Shown here piece by piece: positions 44,224 to 51,434 of a stretch of DNA of 64,000 nt; the first letter of the stretch is position 1; each line of letters opens with the position of its first letter. Under the pieces are notes generated by a model. That model did not search any database and was not told the DNA's origin. It saw only the letters and a program-made list of their open reading frames with translations. The DNA lies in assembly GCF_003789055.1 (NCBI RefSeq), contig NZ_ML119084.1, forward strand, positions 186,001 to 250,000. The letters run 5' to 3'. Made by a program: the position numbers and the translations under genes. This DNA comes from Histidinibacterium lentulum. Lineage in GTDB: Bacteria; Pseudomonadota; Alphaproteobacteria; Rhodobacterales; Rhodobacteraceae.

Positions 44224-44267
44224 GGGGACGATTGGGTTAGGCAGGACCTTTACATCGACCTCTGCTA

Positions 44268-45438
44268 GTGTTCCGAGTCTGACGCTTCCTACCTGTTTCC
44301 ACGGATTTCATCGAGTGCGTTCAGCGCGCGGCGTTCGCGGGCGAGGATGTCTTCGGCGGTTTTGGTCCATCTGAAGGGCTTCGGCGTCTCGTTGTGCTGC
44401 GCCAGATAGTCGTAGATTGCGGCCTCCAGATCATCGACGCTGGAATAGCTGCCGCGTCGGATGCGCCGGGACGTGAGTTCGGCGAAGAAGCGTTCGACCA
44501 GGTTCAGCCAAGACGCGCTGGTGGGCGTGAAGTGCAGCCTGAAGTGCGGGTGCTTGTCCAGCCACGCCCGCACCTCGGGTGTCTTGTGGGTGGCGTAGTT
44601 GTCGAGCACCAGATGGACATCGCGCCCCGCCGGCACTGTCTTGTCGATGTTGCGCAGGAACTTCACGAACTCCTTGGCACGATGGCGCGGCATGCAGTCG
44701 CCGATGACCGCGCCTGTCTTCACATCGAGCGCCGCGAACAGCGTGGTCGTGCCGTGGCGCTTGTAGTCGTGGGTCATCGTGGCGGCGCGCCCCTTCTTGA
44801 GCGGTAGCCCCGGCTGGGTCCGGTCGAGCGCCTGGATTTGCGACTTCTCGTCCACGCACAGCACCACGGCCCGATCTGGCGGATCGAGATAGAGCCCGAC
44901 GATCTCGGTGACCTTCTCCTCGAACATCGGGTCGTTCGAGACCTTGAACCCCTTGATGACATGCGGCTTGAGACCGGCCTCCGCCCATATGCGGCCCACG
45001 CTCGACGGCGAGATACCCATGGCTTCGGCCATCAGCGCACGGGTCCAGTGCGTGGCATTGGGCGGGGTTTCCTGCACCGTCTTGGCGATGACCTTCAGCC
45101 TTGTTTCCATGGGCAATGGCGGCACGCGCGAGGGCCGCGTCTTGTCGCGCTTGAGACCGGCCACGCCCTCAGCGAGATACCGCGCCTGCCACCGCCAGAC
45201 CGTGGGCTTGGACGTGCGTGCGCGCCGCATGATCTCGAAGGTGCCGTGACCATCCGCGGTGGCAAGGACGATCTCGGCCCGCCAGACGAGCTTGCGCGGC
45301 GTGTTGCGGTTGGCGGTCAGCGCTTCAAGTTCAACGCGGTCGGCGGGGCCAAGGTAAAGGCAGATATCGGAGCGTCTCATGCGCCAGAATATGGCACACC
45401 ATGTCAGCGCTGGGAATCTTGTGTCAGGTGGCGAACAC
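44268..45438. mobile_element. IS630-family insertion sequence
   Basis: An intact element of about 1171 bp. Ends are imperfect inverted repeats beginning GTGTTC (left GTGTTCCGAGTCTGAC, right complement GTGTTCGCCACCTGAC), and TA dinucleotides flank both sides (44266-44267 and 45439-45440) within CTAG, the TA target duplication typical of IS630/Tc1. A single transposase gene fills the interior on the minus strand. The right-hand TA forms part of the TAG stop codon of the neighbouring toxin gene, which is left intact. Confidence 0.92.
44289..45380 (-). CDS. IS630 family transposase
   Basis: A 363-residue DDE transposase. An N-terminal helix-turn-helix region (about 30-85, with [12 protein letters not shown]) precedes the RNase-H-like domain; the catalytic triad is Asp177 (CVDEKSQ), Asp260 ([10 protein letters not shown]) and Glu296 ([12 protein letters not shown]). 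No frameshift or internal stop, so the element could be active. Codon usage resembles the host but its GC content is lower than that of adjacent core genes. Confidence 0.95.
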
Positions 45439-45815
45439 TAGCAGCGGATGAGGATCTTGTCCTTGGCGACCAGGATTTTGACCGGCCGGCCAGCGGTCCG
45501 TGCAAACGTGAACTCGATGAGGTCCAGCACTTCTTGCAGTCGCGAGGCACCTTCTGGTTCAGGACACGAAAAGCCTATTCGGCTAAGGTCATTGAAACGT
45601 GGTTTCATGAACCGCTGGTGGTTGAAGTCCTTGTCCCATGTGACCAAGGTGCGGCCCGCCCGCATGGCCGCCTCAGCCACCACAGGGTCCTTAGCGTCAA
45701 CCGGCATGATTTCGCGAACGCGAACAACGTCATGACCGCGATCAATAAGCAGTTTTGGGACAGACTCCGGAACGTTGTGATCAGTCAGAAAACTGGTCGT
45801 TGTCCCAGAGAGCAT
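45438..45815 (-). CDS. DUF5615 PIN-like toxin
   Basis: A 125-residue protein with the DUF5615/Mut7-C-like PIN pattern: FLTDHNVPESVPKLL (first Asp12), VVRVREIMPVDAKDP, and TLVTWDKDFN near the centre. PIN-like toxins of this kind are predicted RNases, paired with DUF433 antitoxins. The ATG overlaps the antitoxin stop (ATGA). The TAG stop is completed by the TA target site of the IS630 insertion. GC content is clearly lower than in flanking core genes, suggesting acquisition. Confidence 0.85.
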   Translation of the reverse strand: MLSGTTTSFLTDHNVPESVPKLLIDRGHDVVRVREIMPVDAKDPVVAEAAMRAGRTLVTWDKDFNHQRFMKPRFNDLSRIGFSCPEPEGASRLQEVLDLIEFTFARTAGRPVKILVAKDKILIRC

Positions 45816-46456
45816 CAGGCGGCATGGGATCCGTCGAACGTACGAGCAGCATCCACGTCTTCAGCAGTCAAATCCGGAAACTCCTCAAGGATCTGGTCGG
45901 TACCATACCCACGTTCGAGATACCGCTTCACGGAAGCGACAGGGATTCGCGTGCCCTCAAAAACCGGCTGATTGTTCTGCACAAAGCGACCGCTCAGAAC
46001 CTGACCGCACTCGCCATGACTCCTATGATTCAGTTCTTCAATCGCCCGTTTTGTGTCGGAGATCGCGACCCGGAGTGGGATATCGAGCACGCGCTGCCCG
46101 CTAACCACCTCCCGGCGCTTGCTGTCGCGCGGATCATCAAAGACAACACGTTTTCCAAGCACGAAGAGCGTCGTCGCAGTCCATTTCTTCTCACCCAAGT
46201 GCGCGAGCTCTGCTGCGACCTTGCGGAGGTGCTGCATCGGGATGCCGGCATCGTTCCTCAGGGCGTTCAGTACCCGAAGCGAGACGATGTCCCTGAACGA
46301 GTAGACCCGGCTGTAGGCCTGTCGCCGATCTTCCGAGGCATAACTTGGGCGCAAGAAACCAGACCGGTCCCAGTCACGTAGCTGGAAGATCGACACGCCA
46401 GTCAGGCGAGTGGCGTCCTCCTCGGAGAAAGCACCTATAACTTCAGTCTCGGTCAC
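45815..46456 (-). CDS. MerR-type HTH / DUF433 antitoxin
   Basis: A 213-residue protein. An N-terminal MerR-like winged helix (about 12-85, LTGVSIFQLRDWDRSGFLRPS...YSFRDIVSLRVL) is joined to a C-terminal DUF433 domain (about 145-205, PVFEGTRIPVASVKRYLERG). DUF433 proteins are antitoxins of DUF5615 toxins; the added MerR domain probably represses the operon. The start is GTG 46456 with GGAGGGAG upstream; earlier in-frame codons lack support. Confidence 0.83.
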   Translation of the reverse strand: MTETEVIGAFSEEDATRLTGVSIFQLRDWDRSGFLRPSYASEDRRQAYSRVYSFRDIVSLRVLNALRNDAGIPMQHLRKVAAELAHLGEKKWTATTLFVLGKRVVFDDPRDSKRREVVSGQRVLDIPLRVAISDTKRAIEELNHRSHGECGQVLSGRFVQNNQPVFEGTRIPVASVKRYLERGYGTDQILEEFPDLTAEDVDAARTFDGSHAA

Positions 46457-46651
46457 TAAACTCCCTCCGGCGATCACCGGATCGCTTACTACAGAAATGG
46501 TTGAAGCATTCCTGCCAGTCAACGTCTCTGCCGGCCAAATGAATCCTAGTTGTTCGCCGTTGCCGCCCACGCGCACGGCGGGAGATCGTCGAGGGCCGAG
46601 CAACCGCTCTTAACCGATTCCATGTTCCTAGCCCAACCCCGCTCTCCTTCC

Positions 46652-46897
46652 TCAACCGACATTTAAGGTCTCCAGTCTGCGAAATCTCCACTTTCCACAT
46701 TCCGGCGGGCGGGTCTCGCGCCGCTCCCGGGCCATGCGCGGGTGCTGCACCAGAAGGTCTAGGTCCGCCGCAAGCCCCCGGACATAGGCCTCCGCCTGCC
46801 CGACCGACCAGGTGCGCGCCGCATAGTCCCAGATGCCGTCCAGATCGGTCAGCGCCGCCGGCGACAGCCGGTACTCAGCGACCACCCGGTCCGGCAT
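46652..46897 (-). pseudogene. truncated ParE/RelE-family toxin
   Basis: The first 62 or so residues (MPDRVVAEYRLSPAALTDLDG...ARERRETRPPE) match the ParE N-terminal two thirds. Then the frame runs into unrelated sequence at about 46705, where a copy of a dispersed repeat begins, and stops after 81 residues. The C-terminal strands carrying the toxic site are missing. It overlaps the 3' end of parD by 23 bases, the normal parDE arrangement. Confidence 0.8.
46667..46703. repeat. dispersed palindromic repeat, partial copy 3
   Basis: Thirty-seven bases related to 47216-47251: the 14-base ACTTTCCACATTCC is identical and the GGTCTCCAGTCTGC part is a degraded form of the GGACTCCCGTCCGG hairpin. The second palindrome of the full-length copies is missing. 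It replaces the 3' end of the parE gene. Confidence 0.75.
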
Positions 46898-47129
46898 CCC
46901 GGTCCCGCTTGCGCGCAAGGAAGGCCTCCACGTCCAGCCCCGCGCCCGGACCGCTTGCCAGCCCCTCGTCGACCAGACGCTGCAGCTCGGCGATGGCCCG
47001 CTGCCGGTCCTGATCGCGGCGGATCAGATCGCGGACATAGTCGCTCGCATTGCTGTAGCGCCCGTCCCGGGTCTGGTCCTCGACCCAGGCCTTCATCGGG
47101 TCGGGCAAGGAAACATTCATCGTGGCCAT
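46875..47129 (-). CDS. parD: ParD-family type II antitoxin
   Basis: An 84-residue ribbon-helix-helix protein: MNVSLPDPMKAWVEDQ (strand and first helix), SNASDYVRDLIRRDQ, then an acidic toxin-binding tail ending LDVEAFLARKRDRD. Start ATG 47129 has AAGGAG nine bases upstream; the in-frame Met three codons on is also possible. It is intact while its toxin gene is truncated. A palindrome over its promoter is a likely self-operator. Confidence 0.88.
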   Translation of the reverse strand: MATMNVSLPDPMKAWVEDQTRDGRYSNASDYVRDLIRRDQDRQRAIAELQRLVDEGLASGPGAGLDVEAFLARKRDRDAGPGGR

Positions 47130-47142
47130 GGTCGCAATCTCC

Positions 47143-47170
47143 TTGCCAGGAAGATGGCACATCTTGGCAA
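47143..47170 (-). promoter_or_regulatory. probable parD promoter/operator palindrome
   Basis: TTGCC-agg-AAGATG-gca-CATCTT-GGCAA: exact 6-bp arms around GCA, flanked by 5-bp arms with a three-base bulge. It starts 14 bases upstream of the parD ATG. TTGACA on the minus strand lies at 47180-47175, so the palindrome would cover the -10 region, a position suited to autorepression by ParD. Confidence 0.6.
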
Positions 47171-47210
47171 AGTTTGTCAAATCCGCTCGAGGCTGTCGGC
47201 TCGCCGCTAT

Positions 47211-47297
47211 TTCCCGGACTCCCGTCCGGAAAAATCCCCACTTTCCACATTCCCAAACAATTCCAACAGGATAACCCAGCGTCCACGTGTGGACGCC
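47211..47297. repeat. 87-bp two-palindrome repeat, copy 1
   Basis: The left end has hairpin CCGGAC-TCCC-GTCCGG followed by AAAAA; the right end has palindrome CGTCCAC-GT-GTGGACG. It aligns without gaps to copy 2 at 50770-50856 at 64 of 87 positions, with the ends almost identical and the middle diverged. It lies 60 bases beyond the stop of the receiver-like gene at 47358. No coding potential. Confidence 0.85.
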
Positions 47298-47357
47298 CCG
47301 GCCCCGGCTCGGCCCCCGGCCTCCTCCATCGCGCTCTCCTCGAAGGCGGGCAGTCCC

Positions 47358-48146
47358 TCACCCCCGGCGAAGAGCCCGCGCCCTCGGCCCGTCCGCCAGC
47401 CCGTCGTCCGCCAGCCGGTTCTCCCACATGGCGTCGATGCCGACCAGCAGCCGGCAACGGAACACCGGCTTCTGCAGCGTCGCGTCCCCGATCGCCCGGC
47501 GATGACCGGACAGCTCGTCCCGGCTGACCGATCCCGACAGCAGAAGGACGGGGATCGCGGCGCAGTCCTGCCGGAAGGAGATCAGCTCGTCGACGCCGTC
47601 CGCCAGATCGTCGAACAGATCGAGGTCGACGATCATGAAACGCCAGTCCGCCGGACGCGCCCGGACGGAATCGAACATGGCGTCGGCATCCGTGGTGTGC
47701 TGGACGTCATGGCCCTGCTCGGCGAGATCCGTGGCGATCTGCCGAGTCTGCACGGAGGGCGGCGCGACCAGCGCGACCCGCGGCGGATCGCCCTCCCCTT
47801 CGAGGCGGGAATAGGACTGCCAGATCGCCAGGTCCGGCGCGACGGGGTCATGCTGCGGCCCTTCCGACAGCCCCCCCGCGCCGGCCCGCTTCGATCGGTA
47901 GCAACCGACCGCCAGCACCGCCAGAAAGACCGAGAGCTGCAGCAGCACGGTCAGCACCACCGCACCCGCAAGCGAGGTGCCGGACCACCAGAGAACCGGA
48001 ACGGAAACGAGCGCCAGCGGGCCGCAGAGAAGTGCCGCCGCGACCGCGAGGCCGGGGCCACCCTCGTCCTGTCGTCGCTTGCGCCCTTCCGCGGACCCTG
48101 GCTTCGCGCCCGGGCCGCGCGGCCGGCGACTGAAACGAAAAGCCAT
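47358..48146 (-). CDS. membrane-anchored receiver-like protein A
   Basis: A 262-residue protein. A basic N-terminus is followed by two membrane helices (about 33-56 and 61-82), a linker, and a receiver-like domain (about 123-240). The phospho-acceptor equivalent Asp174 (IVDLDLF), Ser204 (LLLSGS) and Lys226 (LQKPVF) are present, but the acidic pair of the metal site is replaced by ALVAPPS, so it is an atypical receiver. No output domain. ATG 48146 (MAFRFSRR) was chosen by alignment with its paralogue at 49570-50322. Confidence 0.78.
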   Translation of the reverse strand: MAFRFSRRPRGPGAKPGSAEGRKRRQDEGGPGLAVAAALLCGPLALVSVPVLWWSGTSLAGAVVLTVLLQLSVFLAVLAVGCYRSKRAGAGGLSEGPQHDPVAPDLAIWQSYSRLEGEGDPPRVALVAPPSVQTRQIATDLAEQGHDVQHTTDADAMFDSVRARPADWRFMIVDLDLFDDLADGVDELISFRQDCAAIPVLLLSGSVSRDELSGHRRAIGDATLQKPVFRCRLLVGIDAMWENRLADDGLADGPRARALRRG

Positions 48147-48207
48147 ATGCCGGAACCCGATACAAGGTATTACAATAGCTGATACACGCGCCCTGGCGAT
48201 CAAGCTC

Positions 48208-48220
48208 TTACCTAACGTAA
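48208..48220 (-). promoter_or_regulatory. TTAC-N5-GTAA motif upstream of receiver-like gene A
   Basis: TTACCTAACGTAA, an inverted repeat TTAC-CTAAC-GTAA, 62 bases before the start codon. A nearly identical motif in nearly identical flanking context occurs upstream of the paralogue (50408-50420) and nowhere else noticed in the window. A shared regulator-binding site is inferred. Confidence 0.55.
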
Positions 48221-48351
48221 CACCCCGGGGCGTTCTCCCATCTGCCCGGAAAATCCGCGGGAATCCGCCGCATCACGATCCCGGGAACAGGGTGCCGCGT
48301 CTCCGCCCGTCCCCGCCCCCGGCGCGCGCCCGAAGGCGCGCCATGGTTGCC

Positions 48352-48828
48352 TTACTCCACGACGACACGGCCGTAGACCTCTTCGGGCGGCACGCCCTGG
48401 TCGCGGACGTAGATCGGGTAGACCCCCGGTCTCATCGGGTGAAAGCTGAACCGCGCGGTGCCCGACTCGTCGCACTGGATGGCCCGGAACGTCAGCCCCT
48501 GCATGTAGAACTCCACGTCGGTCTCGCCGATGGACAGGAGGCGGATGTGCGAATTCTCGAGCAGCTCCGTCACCTCGAAATGATAGCCCGTCTCTGACGT
48601 CAGCTCCTCCGGGCAGACGACGTTGAACCGGTAGTAGCCGCCCAGCGCGAGGTCGAACTGCTCCGGCTCGATGACGGGCGCGCCGTCCTCGCCGCGGGTG
48701 ATCTCCATGAAGAAGTCCTCCGGCGCGCCCGATCCCACGCGCCCCGACTCCTGATCCTGCGCCAGCGCCGGCGACAGGGCCAGCGCGCAGAGCGCCGGTG
48801 CGATCCGGCAAAGCATCCTCACGGTCAT
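48352..48828 (-). CDS. exported cupredoxin-like protein, hypothetical
   Basis: A 158-residue protein with a signal peptide (LCRIAPALCALALSPALAQ). The mature part has a Greek-key beta pattern (GGYYRFNVVC, HIRLLSIGETDVEFYMQG, ARFSFHPMRPGVYPIYVRD) that recalls cupredoxins, but no full His/Cys/Met copper set is obvious. Two Cys may pair. It lies between the two receiver-like paralogues, divergent from the pentapeptide gene. Function unknown. Confidence 0.7.
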   Translation of the reverse strand: MTVRMLCRIAPALCALALSPALAQDQESGRVGSGAPEDFFMEITRGEDGAPVIEPEQFDLALGGYYRFNVVCPEELTSETGYHFEVTELLENSHIRLLSIGETDVEFYMQGLTFRAIQCDESGTARFSFHPMRPGVYPIYVRDQGVPPEEVYGRVVVE

Positions 48829-48918
48829 GCAGTCTCTCCCTTCCGATACTCGGTCAGGCAGGAACGCATCGGCCGCCGCCGTGTTTCAGACCCAAGCCCC
48901 GACGCCGGACCGACCGAC

Positions 48919-49518
48919 ATGCGCCTCGCCTCCCTCGTTCCTGCCCTGCTCCTGACATGGGTCACTCCCGCGGCCGCGCAGGGCGATCCGCGCGCGCGCC
49001 TCCTGAGCGAGAACGCCTGCCGCGACTGCGACCTCTCCGGCGCCGACCTGCAGGACGCCGATCTGGCCGAGGCCTATCTCACCTATGCCGTGTTCGACGG
49101 CGCCAATCTGCGCGGGGCGACCCTCGCCGACGCCTTCATGCCCTTCACGAGCTTCGAGGGCGCCGACATGACCGGGACCGTCCTCGACCGCGCCAACATC
49201 CGCAATTCCGTCCTGACGGGCGCCCTGCTCCGAGATGCCTCGCTGGCGGGCGCCGGGCTGCCGCAGGCCACCATGCGCGGGGCCGACCTGACCGGCGCGG
49301 ACCTGTCGGGCGCCTATCTCGAGAGCGCGAACCTGGGCGAAGCGATCCTTCTCGACGCCCGGCTCACCGAGGCGGATCTGACCGGAGCGACCCTCGACGG
49401 CGCCGATCTGACCGGAGCCGACCTCACCGGCGCGACACTCCGGGCGACCGGCGTCTCCGGCGCCACCTTCTGCGGCACGACCATGCCGGACGGGGAGAGC
49501 CGGAACGACGGCTGCTGA
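48919..49518 (+). CDS. exported pentapeptide-repeat protein
   Basis: A 199-residue protein: signal peptide (LVPALLLTWVTPAAAQ) and about 28 A(D/N)LxG-type pentapeptides (for example LSGADLQDADLAEAY, LTGADLTGATL) forming a right-handed quadrilateral beta-helix. Four Cys near the ends could cap the solenoid. Secreted members have no general function. It is divergent from the cupredoxin-like gene and convergent with receiver-like gene B. Confidence 0.88.
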   Translation: MRLASLVPALLLTWVTPAAAQGDPRARLLSENACRDCDLSGADLQDADLAEAYLTYAVFDGANLRGATLADAFMPFTSFEGADMTGTVLDRANIRNSVLTGALLRDASLAGAGLPQATMRGADLTGADLSGAYLESANLGEAILLDARLTEADLTGATLDGADLTGADLTGATLRATGVSGATFCGTTMPDGESRNDGC

Positions 49519-49569
49519 CCCGGCAGGCCAGGAGCCCTCCGACCGGCGGCGTCGGAGGTCCGCTCGCCC

Positions 49570-50322
49570 CTAATCCGGCCTCTGTCCCTCCCGGTTCAAC
49601 CTCATGGCGTCGATCCCGGTCAGCAGCCGGCAGCGGAAGACCGGCTTGCGCAGGGTCACATCGCCGATCGCGCGACGATGATCCGACAGTTCGTCCCTGC
49701 CGACCGATCCCGACAGCAGCAGCACCGGGATCGCCGCACACTCCTTTCGGAAAGACATCAATTCGTCGACGCCGCCCTCGAGCGTATCGAACAGGTCGAG
49801 ATCGACGATCAGGAAATTCCATTCCGTCGGGTGCATCCGAATGATCTCGAAAATGTCGTCGACGGCGGTGGTGTGGTGAATATCGTATCCGAGCTGGGCC
49901 AGGTCGGTGGCAATTTGCCGGTTCTGAACACAGGCCTGTCCGATCAGTGCGACCCGTTGGCAATGTCCGTGATTCTCGAGCGCGGAATAGGAATGCCAGA
50001 TGTCGAGATCCGGCGCGACCCGGGTCTCCCGGTCCGGGTCCCAGGGGCTTTCTGCGTGACGGCCGGAGGATCGCCAGCACCCGATCCCCACCACGGCGAC
50101 AAAGACCGCAAGCTGCAACAGAAAAGTCAGAAGCAGCGCCTGCAGAACCGTGACTCCGGCCAACCAGAAAGCCGGAACCGAGATCAGGGCGATCGGCCCG
50201 CACAGCAGCGCAGCGGCAATCGCGAGACCGGGACGACCGTTCTGCCCGGCACGAATCCGCCGATCCGGAGAGGACCGCTTCTCGGACAGGTCTTGTGGCC
50301 GTTTCCTGAACCACAGTCTCAT
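49570..50322 (-). CDS. membrane-anchored receiver-like protein B
   Basis: A 250-residue paralogue of the protein at 47358-48146, aligning without gaps through residue 240. Membrane helices at about 33-56 and 60-82; receiver-like domain 123-240 with Asp174 (IVDLDLF), Ser204 and Lys226, and again no acidic pair (ALIGQAC). The linker PDLxIWxSYSxLE is conserved between the two. It begins MRLWFRKR at ATG 50322. Likely an inner-membrane signalling or scaffold protein; no kinase is adjacent. Confidence 0.78.
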   Translation of the reverse strand: MRLWFRKRPQDLSEKRSSPDRRIRAGQNGRPGLAIAAALLCGPIALISVPAFWLAGVTVLQALLLTFLLQLAVFVAVVGIGCWRSSGRHAESPWDPDRETRVAPDLDIWHSYSALENHGHCQRVALIGQACVQNRQIATDLAQLGYDIHHTTAVDDIFEIIRMHPTEWNFLIVDLDLFDTLEGGVDELMSFRKECAAIPVLLLSGSVGRDELSDHRRAIGDVTLRKPVFRCRLLTGIDAMRLNREGQRPD

Positions 50323-50769
50323 CAGAGAGATCCGATTTCTACTGCTCTGAGAATTCCACTTTCAGCAGACGAATTCAAATATCTCCTTATAACTTGCCAG
50401 CAACCCCTTACGTAACGTAATCCACCTGTTCCCTCGCGGAATAGTTCTGGCTATTCTCATTCAGATCGCGAGTTTCTGGAAATTGTGTTTCACCTTCGGG
50501 AGAGAGTCATCCCGTTATTTCCGGACATGCGCCGATCCGCGCTGTGTCCGCCGCCGGCTTGGTCCATCTCCGCCCTCGCATCGCGGACCGGGGTCCCGGC
50601 CCGGCAGCACCCGTCCCGCCAATCCGCTGCAGCCTGGCCCGCGCGTCGGGAGGCCTCGCAGACCTCCCCGCAGACCGGGCATCAGCCCGGCCCACCGACC
50701 GCCCTCACGCAGGGGCGTGACACCGACGACGATCAAGACAACGCCTTGATTGATGTGCCGTCCCTGCCA
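50323..50769. other. long upstream region, locally AT-richer
   Basis: The first 160 bases (50323-50480) are markedly less GC-rich than the window and hold AAGGAG and the TTAC-N5-GTAA motif, consistent with a regulatory leader. The rest is GC-rich; frames there are Arg/Pro-rich with no family match. TCAAGACAACGCCTTGA (50731-50747) is a small inverted repeat. Confidence 0.5.
50408..50420 (-). promoter_or_regulatory. TTAC-N5-GTAA motif upstream of receiver-like gene B
   Basis: TTACGTAACGTAA, inverted repeat TTAC-GTAAC-GTAA, 86 bases before the ATG of the paralogue. Twelve of 13 bases equal the motif at 48208-48220, and neighbouring bases also agree. Candidate operator for one regulator controlling both genes. 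Confidence 0.55.
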
Positions 50770-50856
50770 TTCCCGGACTCCGGTCCGGAGAAACTTGCAA
50801 CTTCAGCATTCTTGAGCCATTTCAAAAGGATAGACGACCGTCCACGCGTGGACGCT
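50770..50856. repeat. 87-bp two-palindrome repeat, copy 2
   Basis: Hairpin CCGGAC-TCCG-GTCCGG at the left end and perfect palindrome CGTCCACGCGTGGACG at the right end, the same order and spacing as copy 1 (47211-47297). It ends 5 bases from the UPF0301 stop codon. Conserved ends with a drifting centre suggest the palindromes are the selected parts. Confidence 0.85.
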
Positions 50857-50861
50857 TCGCC

Positions 50862-51434
50862 TCAGGCCCGCCCGGCCTCCCCCGAGAGCAGCAGCGGGTC
50901 GATGCCCAGCGACTTCAGCGCTCCCGACCACTTGTGCTCGTTGGCCCGACCGAAGACCAGCTCCGGCCGCGCGGCGCAGGTCAGCCAGCCGTTCTGCCCG
51001 ATCTCCCCCTCGAGCTGCCCCGGCCCCCAGCCGGAATACCCCAGCGCCAGGAGCGAGGACGACGGCCCCCGCCCCTGCGCCAGTTCCTCCAGCACGTCGA
51101 GCGTCGCCGTCAGCCCGATCTCCCCGTCCACCGGCAGCGTCGCCCCCTCCGAGCGATAGTCCGAGGAATGCAGCACGAAGCCCCGCGCCGCCTCCACCGG
51201 CCCGCCGTAGTGCACCCGAATATCCCGCGCGTCCGGCGCCCGGTCGATCTCCAGCTGCTTCAGCAGGTCGCGGAAGCTCACCTCCGGCGTCGGCTTGTTC
51301 ACGATCAGCCCCATCGCGCCCTCCGCCGAATGGGCGCACATGTAGATCACCGCCTGCTCGAAGCGCGGATCGCCCATCCCGGGCATCGCCACCAGCAGCC
51401 GACCGACGAGGTTCTCGGGTTCCATCTCCGTCAT
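50862..51434 (-). CDS. UPF0301 (YqgE/AlgH) family protein
   Basis: A 190-residue protein: [57 protein letters not shown] and [18 protein letters not shown] are the family landmarks. Function is unknown despite the AlgH name. ATG 51434 follows GAGAGGG closely; ATG 51425 is an alternative. Convergence of its 3' end with a structured repeat is noted. Confidence 0.93.

Follow-up and report, generated by a model that had tools for sequence, protein, structure and literature searches.

The locus and its surroundings

The window analysed here, a stretch of 64,000 nucleotides from Histidinibacterium lentulum, carries two minus-strand genes for membrane-anchored pseudo-receivers, namely paralogue A (47358..48146, 262 aa), identified by BLASTP, an AF2 model and structure comparison, and paralogue B (49570..50322, 250 aa), identified by BLASTP and a profile search. 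In BLASTP, 142 of 244 residues (58%) are identical between A and B with zero gaps (E 2e-92), so the likeness is not due to chance, and the ungapped alignment over 240 residues described in an earlier note on this DNA is borne out over 244. Both reading frames are intact despite this strong divergence. A and B are the result of a true duplication and stand as sisters in the tree described below.

Between them lie a gene for an exported protein of no known family (48352..48828, minus strand) and a gene for an exported pentapeptide-repeat protein (48919..49518, plus strand). The earlier assignment of the latter is clear (Pfam, E 9e-43). The former had been regarded as cupredoxin-like; it gave neither a Pfam match nor a significant sequence match in the PDB, and a single-sequence model, with a pLDDT of 53, was unusable. 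A lies on the same strand as the gene at 48352-48828, and the pentapeptide gene runs antiparallel to the latter and to B. Hence the stretch from A to B is not one operon, and the two exported genes do not constitute a transcriptional pair as had been proposed. A scan for sigma-70 promoters and terminators yielded nothing above shuffled sequences. A search of 54 further pseudo-receiver loci (786 kb) found no homologue of either exported protein, and for the 48352-48828 protein the closest homologues (76% and about 50%) belong to two genomes (G039 and G052) in which no pseudo-receiver is present within the surrounding 16 kb. The exported genes were therefore rejected as part of a unit with A and B. 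The earlier note had made its proposal depend on the paralogues and the exported genes occurring together in other genomes; no such case was found among these loci, which speaks against the unit but leaves the rest of the reading untouched. What stands of the duplicated inner-membrane unit are the anchored pseudo-receivers, their duplication and a signalling context in relatives, and what falls is the membership of the exported genes. With mixed strands inside a genome-specific insertion, the four-gene neighbourhood is probably accidental.

In the congeners G002, G003 and G004, argH, a thioredoxin-like gene and algH are contiguous. Here, congener comparison, GC content and Pfam matches delimit an insertion of about 6.6 kb between the last two (44.24-50.86 kb; 44240..50861), with a GC content of 0.645 versus about 0.72 in the flanks. 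It contains an IS630-type transposase gene (44289-45380), a DUF5615/MerR-DUF433 pair (45438-46603), ParDE (46652-47180), A, the two exported genes and B. A search of four congeners detected nothing closely related to A. The insertion is likely to be a mobile island; a search for carriage on plasmids returned one weak partial match, to a Rhodobacter plasmid. At 45438-46603, the PIN-like DUF5615 protein adjoins a protein combining a MerR-type HTH with DUF433, an arrangement that resembles a toxin-antitoxin pair in which one partner is of the MerR type.

Direct repeats of 114-117 bp with 73% identity (47211..47327 and 50770..50883) bracket the segment from A to B. Each contains the palindrome CGTCCACGYGTGGACG (47280-47295 and 50839-50854), which occurs at 19 sites in the genome, the reversed control being present at none. 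Since it is dispersed in this way, the palindrome was rejected as an island-specific attachment site, and the direct repeats look like a common intergenic repeat. An A/T-rich stretch precedes the palindrome at several sites.

Receiver fold, membrane hairpin and active site

The AF2 model of A, built with 16 family sequences (mean pLDDT 81), comprises two long helices (residues 32-54 and 59-89), a flexible segment at about 91-106 and a receiver core with a pLDDT of about 88-97. This core (residues 121-247; 47406..47786, minus strand) displays the (beta-alpha)5 fold of receiver domains, and comparison with the PDB structures of the receivers PmrA, KdpE, DivK and CheY gave Z scores of 12.7-13.9, the best match having a Z of 13.9 and an rmsd of 2.5 over 117 residues. 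At the position of alpha4, residues 206-221 are modelled as coil at high confidence and the helix is not predicted. A sequence search of the PDB matched NtrX (E 5e-4). The earlier note was thus right to assign a receiver-like domain, though Pfam Response_reg remained sub-threshold with E values of 0.008 (A) and 0.11 (B) and PF00072 scores of 16.8 and 13.1 bits, below the gathering score of 30.2 bits. The corresponding fold of B (residues 121-247; 49582..49962, minus strand) was transferred by ungapped alignment to A.

The long helices make up a transmembrane hairpin (residues 32-89 in both proteins, minus strand), which was assigned in A (47880..48053) from the AF2 helices, hydropathy and Lys/Arg counts and in B (50056..50229) from the ungapped alignment to A and hydropathy. 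Nine to ten Lys/Arg residues (nine in A) precede the first helix, and the turn between the helices contains none. Judged by the positive-inside rule, a guide to membrane topology, both termini and the receiver would be located on the cytoplasmic side. The proteins end at most about 15 residues past alpha5; an output domain after the receiver is absent, and no other Pfam domain scored above cut-off. Both the two membrane helices per protein and the anchored architecture lacking an output domain agree with what had been read from the sequence before.

Alignment to NtrX assigned D174 (phospho-Asp), S204 (Ser/Thr) and K226 (Lys) as active-site residues of A and placed A128-P129 at the acidic pair, in line with the earlier reading that the Asp, Ser and Lys positions are kept and the acidic metal pair is lost. 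The full five-residue active site of receivers (two acidic residues, Asp, Ser/Thr and Lys) is found in neither A nor B. Across the 15 anchored members neither position of the pair is ever acidic; D174 and S/T204 are present in all 15 and K226 in 12, and five have an acidic residue one position after the pair, where A has P130 and B a Cys. Among 35 soluble relatives, D174 is retained in 19 and the Lys in four, and 32 retain D176, an Asp two positions further along. Given that the pair is absent from every anchored member and that the soluble relatives so often lack D174 and the Lys, the family conserves something other than phospho-chemistry. Conservation peaks at 2.1-2.6 bits in beta4, the loop replacing alpha4 and beta5, compared with 1.0-1.6 bits from beta1 to alpha2. 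The beta4-beta5 region is the usual contact face of receivers.

Pseudo-receivers are defined by a receiver fold without key phosphotransfer residues (PMC12632262); in A and B the fold is present and such residues are missing. Metal binding by the acidic pair is required for the usual phosphotransfer reaction (PMC12632262), and from their sequences we infer that A and B are incapable of phosphorylation.

Distribution, phylogeny and gene neighbourhoods of the family

A profile search of sampled genomes, in which no more than six candidates were scored for each, found family members in at least 46 of 395 Rhodobacteraceae genomes. Among 385 genomes sampled from the class, it gave at least one match outside this family. 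The weakest matches are long and could be ordinary hybrid kinases. Among the carriers are Marivita, Sediminimonas, Alexandriicola, Salinihabitans, Pseudorhodobacter, Tropicibacter and Citreimonas. In the maximum-likelihood tree, which comprises 50 members and has many long terminal branches (median 1.2), the anchored proteins form a single clade (support 98/92, or 93/82 when the most distant member is added), and its sister is a soluble clade (99/89) that holds a third Histidinibacterium lentulum member, encoded on contig 13. A and B group together (99/97), followed by a Marivita protein (L096:8001-8756; 100/100). From this topology, the hairpin anchor was probably gained once, and A and B stem from a later duplication. 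Several other genomes carry two anchored copies, there on separate contigs. The family probably originated within Rhodobacteraceae in the form of soluble pseudo-receivers without an output domain.

In the surroundings of the approximately 50 members inspected, the recurrent neighbour is a LuxR-type response regulator, usually with a hybrid kinase. Such a regulator lies within 11 kb of a pseudo-receiver in six of the 32 genomes that had been left out of regulator-profile building to avoid circularity (0.58 expected, P 3e-5), and CsgG (PF03783) is found within the same distance in four genomes (0.07 expected, P 7e-7); these P values are approximate because uniform placement on a 4-Mb genome was assumed and the 11-kb limit was chosen post hoc. 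A signalling context, in line with part of the earlier reading, is thus seen in relatives. In Marivita, the nearest relative of A and B directly follows a soluble pseudo-receiver, the order being curlin-repeat protein, hybrid kinase, molybdopterin-like protein, LuxR-type regulator, small membrane protein, soluble and then anchored pseudo-receiver, and two exported proteins. On contig 13 of Histidinibacterium lentulum, the third member is accompanied by CsgG, two LuxR regulators and a hybrid kinase bearing PAS and GAF domains. The regulator/kinase/CsgG context occurs in only about one quarter of the loci inspected and for about four of the 15 anchored members, none of it beside A or B, and most CsgG-bearing genomes are without a pseudo-receiver. 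Neither CsgG nor curlin genes are present at the A/B locus, the CsgG of this genome being the one on contig 13, and around anchored members no conserved gene order was found beyond the regulator/kinase/CsgG signal.

The CsgG loci also encode exported proteins with a repeated STTALGAVNTG-type motif; two were scanned and none reached the Pfam cut-off. At L089:115-3575 (contig 13 of the organism itself), L168:3908-6345, L169:6977-10160 and L152:8265-12756, a CsgG-type gene is followed by tandem exported proteins of this type that match no convincing Pfam family; they may represent a Rhodobacteraceae system for a fibre or for secreted repeat proteins that has yet to be described. Further arrangements were seen at soluble members. 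Three tandem pseudo-receivers in a record deposited as Maritalea mobilis (L104:6970-10070) are followed by an NYN-like protein, a LuxR regulator, a FIST protein and a hybrid kinase. Three soluble pseudo-receiver genes are each immediately preceded by a gene of a small protein family that matches nothing in Pfam (L066:1032-1715, L065:8589-9038 and L068:3588-4139) and may be a partner. Another soluble subgroup seems to stay beside a YebC/PmpR-type gene in two genomes (L106:7719-9162 and L138:8026-9500).

A genome-wide search revealed a 13-bp element upstream of both paralogues, TTACGTTAGGTAA for A (48208..48220, minus strand) and TTACGTTACGTAA for B (50408..50420, minus strand). The element, TTACGTTASGTAA, lies 74 nt upstream of A and 98 nt upstream of B, and exact copies are found only at these two places in 4.35 Mb, with about 0.03 exact matches expected by our estimate from base composition; one more site, with a single mismatch, is located on contig 5 (L181, about 1501-1513). 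The element is present neither at the Marivita gene nor at the contig-13 locus, and it was rejected as a family-wide operator, being carried by A and B only. As its flanks are only partly alike between A and B and it is missing at the Marivita gene, the element is either an operator that has been retained or a leftover from the duplication. Its absence from the Marivita and contig-13 loci also implies that the regulator of A and B need not be the LuxR/kinase module. Both genes reside on the island with a common upstream element and are therefore probably expressed together.

Relation to known systems and possible mode of action

Curli systems with CsgD and CsgG resemble several pseudo-receiver loci in combining a CsgG-type gene with LuxR-type regulators. 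A and B, however, have no DNA-binding domain, and the exported proteins of most of these loci match no curlin model, the Marivita protein being the only one that does. For FrzS of Myxococcus xanthus, we know of no report of a membrane hairpin. FrzS is similar in having an atypical receiver that binds neither Mg2+ nor a phosphoryl group and makes localised protein contacts (PMC1974792); it lacks the Asp, whereas A and B keep it. CmrT of the Clostridioides difficile CmrRST system is likewise a pseudo-receiver encoded alongside a kinase and a response regulator that are otherwise normal (PMC12632262). CmrT is described as an atypical response regulator (PMC12632262), whereas the A/B family has no output domain, one of its clades is membrane-bound and no kinase is encoded beside A or B. 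With bacterial pseudo-receivers in general (PMC12632262), A and B share the receiver fold by profile and structure, the loss of key residues, here the acidic pair, and a likely role in protein contact; they add a transmembrane hairpin and have neither an output domain nor a predicted helix alpha4. In the main text of that review, a word search found 'transmembrane' zero times and 'membrane' once. A limited literature search for work on response regulators anchored in the membrane, or on how curli are regulated in Rhodobacteraceae, returned nothing relevant. A and B are a real variant of pseudo-receivers, for which the sources searched here gave no name, and their function is inferred.

Our preferred reading, which we put forward tentatively and with less than even confidence, holds A and B to be membrane-tethered pseudo-receivers that, independently of phosphorylation, contact proteins of a two-component, curli-type surface pathway and were duplicated on the island. 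Soluble, output-less pseudo-receivers would originally serve a module of LuxR/NarL-type regulator and hybrid kinase, which in several genomes sits beside a CsgG-type export gene and genes for exported repeat proteins. The hairpin of one clade would hold the receiver face at the inner membrane, and the tethered domain would bind a kinase or response regulator via its conserved beta4-beta5 face, a binding that may dampen or localise, or conceivably boost, that two-component pathway. The gene would have been duplicated here, with both copies on the likely mobile island and one common upstream element. We favour contact over phosphorylation because in this family the receiver face is retained whereas the chemistry is lost, and the neighbours of relatives make a LuxR-type regulator or hybrid kinase the likely partner.

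The anchoring, the missing output domain and the lost chemistry would also suit a scaffold similar to FrzS, where the anchored pseudo-receiver marks or organises an inner-membrane site without direct two-component contact and A and B possibly form a heterodimer. FrzS provides the precedent of an atypical receiver working by protein contact (PMC12632262, PMC1974792), and some anchored members without a regulator are near surface or secretion genes, namely an RTX protein with HlyD (L063) and a Tad-type protein (L057). A scaffold is a serious alternative, though we consider it rather unlikely, since the gene association is stronger for regulator and kinase and the anchored clade is sister to a soluble clade found in regulator/kinase loci. 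It is improbable that A and B are mere passengers, former signalling genes that now do little or nothing in this strain: the insertion with its IS630 and toxin-antitoxin genes, its low GC content and its absence from congeners would fit, but the frames are intact at 58% identity, and key residues and upstream element are kept in both copies.

Acceptance of phosphate, for instance as a sink for a hybrid kinase and with some other residue standing in for the acidic pair, would explain the retention of D174 and S/T204 in every anchored member and of K226 in most, and would fit the acidic residue one position on in five. It is quite improbable, however, given that both metal positions of anchored members are devoid of acidic residues, that the next position is P130 in A and Cys in B, that half of the soluble relatives lack the Asp and that the usual reaction needs metal binding by the acidic pair (PMC12632262). 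As to the two exported proteins, adjacency speaks for their being extracytoplasmic partners of the anchored pair, an option we regard as extremely improbable in view of the mixed strands, the lack of relatives at the 54 loci and the homologues of one protein elsewhere.

How pseudo-receivers switch was called a mystery in a 2025 review, and nearly all that have been studied are orphans without a partner kinase (PMC12632262). The family of A and B offers natural cases in which a likely kinase and regulator are adjacent, in soluble as well as membrane-tethered forms, and the anchor of one clade is a clear evolutionary step open to test. It is possible, if doubtful, that Rhodobacteraceae possess a two-component kind of their own, in which output-less pseudo-receivers, singly or several together and some of them fixed to the inner membrane, would be a standard third component beside hybrid kinase and LuxR-type regulator and would control a CsgG-type exported repeat-protein fibre. 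The gene neighbours often found beside relatives of these tethered proteins suggest a so far unstudied means of adjusting bacterial signalling at the membrane.
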